Source: Luminiphilus syltensis NOR5-1B
Lineage (GTDB): Bacteria > Pseudomonadota > Gammaproteobacteria > Pseudomonadales > Halieaceae
Assembly: GCF_000158175.1 (NCBI RefSeq)
Contig: NZ_DS999411.1
Span: 2,636,714 to 2,700,713 of the forward strand
Length of the DNA: 64,000 bases
Reading direction: 5' to 3'
Part shown: in pieces, positions 18,620 to 21,264 of the stretch
How positions within the stretch are numbered: the stretch's first letter is position 1
How the letters are laid out: the number at the start of each line of letters is the position of its first letter
Made by a program: the position numbers and the translations under genes
Notes under the pieces: model-generated
Databases searched by the model: none
Told to the model about the DNA's origin: nothing
Seen by the model: the letters and a program-made list of their open reading frames with translations, nothing else

Positions 18620-19627
18620 ATGCCAAACCAACGTGTTCTTACCGGAATAACCACCAGTGGTACGCCGCATCTGGGTAACTATGTCGGCGCCATCAAGCCC
18701 GCGATTGAGGCGTCAAGGCGATCCGACACCGACGCTTATCTCTTTCTCGCGGATTATCATGCGCTCATTAAGTGTGAGGACCCTGAACAGGTGGCGCGCT
18801 CGAGTAAAGAGATTGCCGCGGCGTGGCTGGCGTTGGGGCTTGATCCCGCGGGCAGTCATTTTTACCGTCAATCAGACATTCCCGAGGTGGCGGAGCTTTG
18901 CTGGATACTGTGCTGCAATACGGCAAAGGGCTTGATGAATCGGGCGCATGCTTACAAAGCAGCGGTTCAGGCTAATGACGCCAGTAACGACGATCCTGAC
19001 TTCGGCATCAAGATGGGACTGTTCTCCTACCCGATTCTCATGGCGGCCGATATTTTGATATTTAACGCGGAGCGGGTTCCTGTCGGGCGTGACCAAATCC
19101 AACATGTTGAAATGGCTCGCGATATCGCCCAGCGCTTCAATCACCATTACGAGCCGCTGTTTACGCTGCCGGAGGCGGTAGTCGATGACAATGTCGCTGT
19201 GCTTCAGGGGCTTGATGGTCGAAAAATGAGTAAAAGTTATAACAACACCATCCCCCTGTTTGAGGGTGAGAAAAAGCTGCAGAAATCGATTAACAAGATA
19301 AAGACCAACCTGCTCGAGCCTGGCGAACCCAAGGATCCGGACGACTCTATCGTGTTCCAGATCTGGTCGGCGTTCGCCGATAACGAGCAGCGAGAATCAA
19401 TGCGACAGGACTTTGCCGATGGCATTGCCTGGGGCGAAGCCAAGAAGCTGCTTTTCAAACGTATTAACGAGGAACTGGCACCGGCGCGTGAGCGCTATCA
19501 GTATCTAATGGATCACCCTGGCGAGCTGGAGGATATTATGGTGGCAGGCGCCGAACGCGTGCGGCCCCAGGCAAGCGAGCTGTTGCGACAAGTACGTGAT
19601 GCCATTGGATTACGCGCCTATGCCTGA
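18620..19627 (+). CDS. trpS: Tryptophanyl-tRNA synthetase
   Basis: Class I aminoacyl-tRNA synthetase charging tRNA-Trp. The 335-residue product has the HIGH-like motif [12 protein letters not shown] near the N-terminus, the tryptophan pocket ([25 protein letters not shown]), and the KMSKS loop in [11 protein letters not shown]. Start ATG 18620 follows CGGAGATTTACCC. It is probably cotranscribed with the M18 peptidase. The 83 bases after it hold no gene that I can support. Confidence 0.96.
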
Positions 19628-19710
19628 TGTGAATCTCATGGCTGTGATCGGAACGTGGCGAGCTGAGCCGATCCAGCCGTATCTGCCACTAGCGATCGGG
19701 GGATAATCCG

Positions 19711-20808
19711 ATGGCGAATATCCCAACGATTCTTGAAATCAGTGATGATTTTCCCATCGCGACGTCCTCGCCCGTGCATTCCGGGAAGGTGCGCTCCGCT
19801 TATTGGCTGACAAGCAATGACTCACGACGCCTCGTGGAGGCCCGTGGTTACCCGGCAAGCGCCGATTCACAGTTGGGCATCCTGATTATTTCAGATCGTA
19901 TCTCTGCTTTTGAGTGTTTGTGGCATGGAGAGGGTGATTTACGCGGAGTGCCCGGTAAGGGCGCCGCTTTAAATGCCATTTCCGCACACTGGTTCGACCG
20001 CTTCAGGACAGAGGGCCTCGCGCGCAGTCACATTCTCGAAGTACCCCACCCTCTGGTTTGGGTGGTGCAGCGCGCACAACCGATTCAGATCGAAGCGATT
20101 GCTCGGCGCTACATTACCGGGTCCATGTGGCGTGCCTACCATGCCGGAGCACGGGATTTTTGCGGCTATACATTGCCCCCGGGTCTCCGCGCCCATGAGC
20201 GACTGGAGGAGCTTGTGGTCACTCCATCAACCAAGGGTATTATTCGGGGCATACCCGGCGTGCCTGAAGCCGACGACGTCAATGTATCGAGATCGATACT
20301 GCGCGCCCATTGGCGCGCTTTCGATTTCAGAGCCTCAGCGACATCGATCGCTACGAGCAGTTGTTATGCGCCGGCTTTGACCTTATCAGCAGCGATCTCG
20401 CCCGGGCAGGGTCGTATTTTTGTGGACACTAAATTCGAATTTGGATACGTCCACAGCGAATCAGGTACGTTGGAAATGATTTACATGGATGAGGTGGGCA
20501 CACCGGATTCATCACGAATATGGGAGGGTGACGCCTACCGGCAGGGGCAGGTGGTAGAGCGCAGTAAAGAAGCTTTCCGCCAGGCACTGCTTGACCTGGC
20601 TCCAGACCCGGCTGTGCTGCTCGACAAGCAGCGGATGGCAGAGCGCCTGGCGTTTGCAGCAACAACCACCTTGCCACTCGAACTGATGATGGACGTCTCT
20701 CAAAATTATCTCGGGCTCGGTCGGGAGATCACCGGCTCCGAAATACGCGTCCCTGAACACCCGAGGGCGGAGATACTCGACGCGCTGGCTGGATTGGGAT
20801 TAATCTAA
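19711..20808 (+). CDS. purC: SAICAR synthase (PurC, long form) with two compensating frameshifts
   Basis: Catalyses ATP-dependent joining of aspartate to CAIR in purine synthesis. This is the long PurC form (about 365 residues). Conserved blocks: PVHSGKVRSAYWL, ISDRISAFECLWHGEG, RRYITGSMWRAY, VTPSTKGII, IPGVPEADDVN, FVDTKFEFGYV and MDEVGTPDSSRIWEGD. Residues about 207-237 do not fit the family, whereas the -1 frame of the same bases encodes SLSDIDRYEQLLCAGFDLIS and onwards, which does fit. One base seems lost near 20325-20328 (GATTTCAG) and one T gained in the T5 run at 20417-20421, restoring the frame. Sequencing error in T runs is as likely as a real change. Confidence 0.9.
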   Translation: MANIPTILEISDDFPIATSSPVHSGKVRSAYWLTSNDSRRLVEARGYPASADSQLGILIISDRISAFECLWHGEGDLRGVPGKGAALNAISAHWFDRFRTEGLARSHILEVPHPLVWVVQRAQPIQIEAIARRYITGSMWRAYHAGARDFCGYTLPPGLRAHERLEELVVTPSTKGIIRGIPGVPEADDVNVSRSILRAHWRAFDFRASATSIATSSCYAPALTLSAAISPGQGRIFVDTKFEFGYVHSESGTLEMIYMDEVGTPDSSRIWEGDAYRQGQVVERSKEAFRQALLDLAPDPAVLLDKQRMAERLAFAATTTLPLELMMDVSQNYLGLGREITGSEIRVPEHPRAEILDALAGLGLI

Positions 20809-20862
20809 CGCGGTTCGGTTCACCAACGCGCCGAAAATTCAACGAATGCTAAAGAGTAGTTT

Positions 20863-21264
20863 ATGAAGATAATCAATCTGACCGACCATCTCGCGGTTTC
20901 CGCACAGCCGACTCCTGCTGATATGGCCACCCTTGCTGCAGACGGTTATCAGACAGTCATATGCAACCGTCCCGACGGCGAGACTGACGGCCAGCCAACA
21001 ATGGCTGATATGGAGGCTGCCGCCACTGCCGCGGGTTTACGTTTTGTTCGATATCCGGTCAACGCAACGACATTCCCGGGTGCTGCACCCGCTGATATGG
21101 CCGCTGAATTTGATAACCAGGAAAAAACACTGGCTTACTGCCGCACCGGAACCCGATGCACCAATCTATGGGTGGTGACACGCAGTGAAGAACAGCGCGG
21201 CGAGGCAGAAGCCAAAGCGCTGGCACTGGGTTTTGAACTAAGTCTTGCCAACCAGGCCCGCTAA
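20863..21264 (+). CDS. DUF442 / TIGR01244-type phosphatase-like protein (Blh N-terminal domain family)
   Basis: A 133-residue protein resembling the beta-lactamase-hydrolase-like (Blh) N-terminal domain, a dual-specificity-phosphatase-like fold. Visible: KIINLTDHLAVSAQPTPADM (QP-type start), TVICNRPDGE, and the loop LAYCRTGTRCTNLW, which replaces the PTP signature Cx5R with a shorter CxxGxR loop typical of this group. In other bacteria the family is linked to sulfide/persulfide or biofilm control; its role here is unknown. It stands alone between purC and an opposing unknown gene. Confidence 0.75.
   Translation: MKIINLTDHLAVSAQPTPADMATLAADGYQTVICNRPDGETDGQPTMADMEAAATAAGLRFVRYPVNATTFPGAAPADMAAEFDNQEKTLAYCRTGTRCTNLWVVTRSEEQRGEAEAKALALGFELSLANQAR

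Follow-up and report, generated by a model that had tools for sequence, protein, structure and literature searches.

The window considered here, a stretch of 64,000 nucleotides from Luminiphilus syltensis NOR5-1B, carries purC at positions 19711-20808 on the forward strand as an open frame of 365 codons. The product is a long-form SAICAR synthase of the TIGR02735 type (purC_vibrio), matching this family over residues 7-360 with 519.6 bits (curated cut-off 394.2) and PF01259 with 108.7 bits (cut-off 20), while the cut-off of NF010567 was missed (515.6 vs 581). As in other long-form enzymes, the invariant DTKFEFGY and EVGTPDSSR blocks are kept, and the core residues are conserved in the written frame, including D239, T240, K241, F242, E243, F244, G245 and Y246 of the DTKFEFGY strand. 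The window's PurC differs from the family in its score below the NF010567 cut-off and in residues 207-236, which as written match none of the relatives. Both neighbouring genes on the forward strand look intact, namely a trpS-like tRNA synthetase gene upstream (18620-19627; PF00579, profile positions 7-288 of 292) and a gene of the BLH_phosphatase family downstream (20863-21264; PF04273, profile positions 4-107 of 110). When 20 other open reading frames of the window were compared with Pfam, 17 matched and three were without family, and no split genes were suggested. The genome comprises 3.26 Mb in one contig with a listed completeness of 99.83%, and a search of all of it with the PF01259 profile returned purC as the sole match, which rules out relief by another copy. 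The two other purine genes looked for, purH and purL, are full-length. Since purC is single-copy and these two genes are full-length, PurC should be needed.

The displaced segment was delimited against relatives. From 57 purC loci, three copies of the window's own gene and seven duplicates or fragments were removed; two of the 47 remaining loci yielded no PurC frame by script, and 45 relatives were aligned. A search of the genus for PurC listed matches in 50 of 57 genomes, only part of which entered the alignment. The written frame agrees with the 45 relatives up to residue 206 and again from residue 237 onward, but residues 207-236 (20329-20418, forward strand) fit none of them in that frame. 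Read in the -1 frame, these bases give FQSLSDIDRYEQLLCAGFDLISSDLARAGSYF, which aligns with all 45 without gaps, and columns 201-246 are free of gaps in every relative. With a profile of the relatives, residues 209-236 reach 39.6 bits if read in the -1 frame, compared with -35.3 bits as written and -49.1 bits in the +1 frame. The highest score among 20,000 codon shuffles was -7.0 bits, and the second-best stretch of 28 residues in the whole window, on both strands, reached 1.7 bits. In sliding windows of 20 residues along residues 6-355, the written frame is best except in six windows starting at 196-221. Seven columns within residues 207-237 show conservation of at least 85%; the residues of the -1 frame agree at all seven and those of the written frame at none, so that the conserved helix sequence of SAICAR synthases is not kept in the protein as written. 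Because the -1 frame fits the relatives without gaps and keeps all seven positions, one base appears to be short near 20326 and one to be over in a run of five T. The double frame change is thus confirmed in the sequence as given, as two cancelling indels, neither divisible by three, within an open reading frame that stays open throughout.

The first frame change lies in 20320-20334, as placed by alignment and profile, and the exact base of the apparent loss, near 20326, is not fixable from sequence alone. The bases at 20323-20330 read GATTTCAG, and a T-run is plausible as the original state at this site. The return of the frame was assigned to the T-run at 20417-20421 by the base run and the alignment, with one base apparently gained; its exact base is uncertain because the alignment program set the return earlier, at about 20400 (genome position 2657113). 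A perfect inverted repeat of seven pairs with a loop of four bases, found by a search for terminator-like patterns, stands at 20301-20318 directly 5' of the first shift. Two such matches occur in 19600-20900 against 1.2 expected in shuffles, and the repeat alone is not significant. Stems of at least seven pairs are present in 1.6% of random 40-base contexts. The first-pass annotation had described two compensating one-base shifts in purC, a -1 frame resembling long-form PurC and conserved flanking blocks in frame, all of which agree with the alignment, the profile scores and the conserved positions, the flanks fitting the 45 relatives at residues 196-206 and from 237 onward. Its 31 or so scrambled residues are corrected to about 30 (207-236). 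The bases it named, a loss near 20327 and an extra T in the run at 20417-20421, are as it described them, with the exact positions uncertain as above. The possibility it had raised that relatives share the odd segment in frame, as a trait common to them, is rejected, since none of the 45 does so.

The place of the segment in the enzyme was examined with AlphaFold2 models of the window's written PurC and of its counterpart in G006, a congeneric genome in one contig, with the relatives supplied as alignment. The G006 model, which matches solved SAICAR synthases (2cnq, 6yvq and others), has a confident helix at its residues 203-226 (209-232 of the window's PurC) directly before the DTKFEFGY strand, with block confidences of 95, 96 and 97 over its residues 201-230. 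For the written PurC the corresponding values over residues 201-240 are 83, 57, 59 and 76, the drop falling on 211-220 and 221-230. A helix is drawn for the written segment as well, but it is suggested by the alignment rows, and the model is therefore no evidence of folding. By modelling, then, the region of residues 207-236 is the helix just before the invariant strand, and not the loop of which the first-pass annotation spoke.

If the change of frame were old, the abandoned frame should show decay. The -1 segment has a mean identity of 43.7% to the relatives, compared with 48.5% among the relatives themselves (ratio 0.90), and the rest of PurC has 61.6% compared with 67.8% (ratio 0.91). These ratios give no sign of decay, with the limited power of 28 codons. 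With the abandoned frame undecayed, the shifts would be either very recent or not real. Relative to the divergence from the nearest full-length relative (61% identity), the event appears to be very young, unless it is no mutation at all.

Indels elsewhere in the assembly bear on this choice. Frameshift-aware protein-to-DNA alignment was applied to 1.2 Mb each of this genome and of G006, the sole relative in this count, covering 363 genes (123,867 aligned residues) of this genome and 352 genes in the reverse direction; a third own stretch of 400 kb contributed few comparable genes (351 vs 340). At a penalty of 9, four of the 363 genes gained at least 20 in score. The fourth, with a gain of 20, was rejected as alignment upstream of the true start, and three stand above background, a LysR-family gene (gain 375), a methyltransferase-like gene (88) and purC (54), the last being the only such gene within the range of the window. 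The LysR-family gene (locus L093, genome 2792641-2793544, minus strand), which we take to be OxyR-like and whose G006 counterpart matches HTH_1 and LysR_substrate, has four events, including two clear one-base losses and a further shifted patch, together with an in-frame stop; despite these indels its residue identity to G006 is 0.65. In the methyltransferase-like gene (locus L095, near genome position 2833248; counterpart matching Methyltransf_11) a single apparent one-base loss displaces the last 46 or so residues. Hence uncompensated one-base indels, as assembly errors would produce, are present in two further conserved genes of this genome.

In the reverse direction, six of 352 genes gained at least 20, and each could be set aside. 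The largest gain belongs to an open frame running upstream of an FAD-binding gene, presumably nadB-like; the second belongs to a dnaX-like gene, its upstream part being in fact an SRP RNA gene; another, at an ABC-transporter gene, is alignment ahead of the true start; a fourth mirrors the window's purC; and the last two (23 and 21) come from upstream alignment and a weakly conserved linker. No convincing coding frameshift was thus seen in G006 among the 352 compared genes. The small SRP RNA gene in question (RF00169, 68.3 bits; L154:1311-1407, plus strand) lies outside the window, directly upstream of the dnaX-like gene, where it passes for a conserved reading frame when frames are compared. 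With the penalty raised to 18, this genome shows four internal events (purC and the LysR-family gene), eight in codons 1-60 of stop-to-stop frames and 13 weak ones, and the reverse direction four, seven and 15; the four internal events of the latter are the dnaX-like gene, the mirror image of purC twice and an end effect. Uncompensated indels in conserved genes here, and none convincing in G006, fit residual consensus errors. For the LysR-family gene, where indels and an in-frame stop are piled up at an identity of 0.65, errors of base calling fit better than slow decay. Wholesale shortening of T-runs was not seen, the spectra of run lengths being alike in this genome and G006, and CGATTTTCA is still present 16 times in 800 kb (both strands), so that a wholesale context error is rejected.

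A local context is shared by two of the losses. The pattern TTGGCGC-N4/5-CGATTTCA is common to the purC loss (20310-20329) and to one loss in the LysR-family gene (genome 2793158-2793176, L182). With a gap of 3-6 bases, TTGGCGC and CGATTTCA occur together twice in the whole genome, at exactly these two sites; the pattern read backwards as a control occurs nowhere in the genome, and neither does the pattern with one more T. Homology does not explain the sharing, since there is no relationship between the two genes and the codon phase of the pattern differs. The finding is suggestive only, because the pattern was chosen after the sites had been seen. Counted likewise post hoc over seven indel sites, of which those in the LysR-family gene overlap one another, GCGC is found within about 30 bases upstream at five (21.6% of 4000 random positions), and a stem of at least five at five (15.6% of random positions). 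The shared context is suggestive of a sequence-dependent cause, which may be systematic miscalling or a mutational hotspot beside short GC-rich inverted repeats.

Two local consensus errors probably account for the double shift in purC. The organism would then carry an ordinary long-form purC, the assembled sequence having lost one base near 20326 and gained one in or near the T-run at 20417-20421, and gene callers would see an intact open reading frame because the two errors cancel in length. We infer that sequencing or assembly, rather than mutation, is the cause and that cells make a normal enzyme. The first-pass annotation had offered sequencing error and a truly altered protein as alternatives, and the error branch is favoured by the uncompensated indels in the LysR-family and methyltransferase-like genes, by the abandoned frame without decay and by the context common to the purC loss and one loss in the LysR-family gene. 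The written frame also drops all seven strongly conserved positions of a single-copy, presumably needed enzyme, and the confidence of the model falls to 57 and 59 where the matching G006 blocks have 95-97. Against errors of this kind, indel density is low (three of 363 genes), T-runs of three to five are short for systematic errors, and the wholesale shortening of T-runs is absent. The indels are also clustered, two in purC about 90 bases apart and several in the LysR-family gene. Low-quality patches would explain such clustering, but in purC selection for a compensating change would explain it too.

It is unlikely that the pair of shifts is genuine, that is, a very recent compensating frameshift in this strain with a tolerated, rewritten helix of 30 residues. 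The purC frame is open throughout, which is in itself not improbable because, of 4421 one-base losses considered in this genome, 1571 leave a stretch of 31 codons open, and the loss adjoins a perfect GC-rich inverted repeat, a plausible slippage site. Frameshifting as compensation for indels has been described (PMC5009743), and compensating pairs exist in animals (PMC8935012). In that report, however, the pairs lie in somewhat less conserved genes or regions, the effect at the level of genes being not particularly strong, and six of 624 candidates passed all of its stringent filters, which required more than one species. A genuine pair would moreover have cost a single-copy biosynthetic enzyme all seven strongly conserved positions of the segment; the old frame is without decay, and two more conserved genes of this genome carry indels that nothing compensates. 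Bolder, and quite doubtful, is the form of this idea in which single-copy PurC has swapped its conserved helix for 30 unrelated residues at a hairpin-side indel hotspot marked by TTGGCGC-N4/5-CGATTTCA, which also struck the LysR-family gene. It is very improbable that purC, along with the LysR-family gene, has recently and truly become a pseudogene because the lineage is supplied with purines, the second indel in purC being coincidental: the clustering of indels in two genes would suit this, but purC is without excess amino-acid change, the rest of its frame is intact, both purH and purL have their full length, and the LysR-family gene retains an identity of 0.65. Programmed recoding, by ribosomal frameshifting or transcriptional slippage that restores the helix at expression, is hardly credible: the conserved helix is still encoded in the other frame, but it would take two shifts in opposite directions, with about 90 bases between them, T-runs of 3 and 5 bases are short for slippage, the arrangement is conserved in none of the 45 relatives, and no match in the window reached the Rfam gathering score.

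Consensus errors of the favoured kind have precedents. Homopolymer-length errors usually remain in long-read-only bacterial assemblies (PMC8812927). In a second report, deletion errors are found mostly after homopolymers of 2-8 bases, in most cases after four to five, and an uncorrected draft of Pseudomonas syringae had 1101 frameshifted genes (PMC12007338). The present case resembles what these reports describe in that single bases are lost or gained at or next to short runs, in conserved genes and without extra amino-acid change; it differs in that two errors cancel within one gene and leave an open reading frame that is not flagged. To the animal pairs of PMC8935012, purC is alike in its one-base deletion followed by a one-base insertion. 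The six confident pairs there are spaced by 7-99 bases, the two of the deletion-then-insertion type by 32 and 14, and the spacing in purC is about 90. It differs from them as a conserved bacterial enzyme whose pair is seen in one genome and from the DNA sequence alone.

If the double shift is an artefact, it would be a clear example of an error that is hard for annotation pipelines to see, because the shifts cancel and the open reading frame stays open, and proteins of this kind would end up in databases as unusual forms of essential enzymes. The case warns against taking an open frame as proof of a correct protein. If it is real, it would be a compensating pair in a gene where such pairs are least expected, and would offer a rare natural test of how the loss of a conserved helix is tolerated by a needed enzyme.
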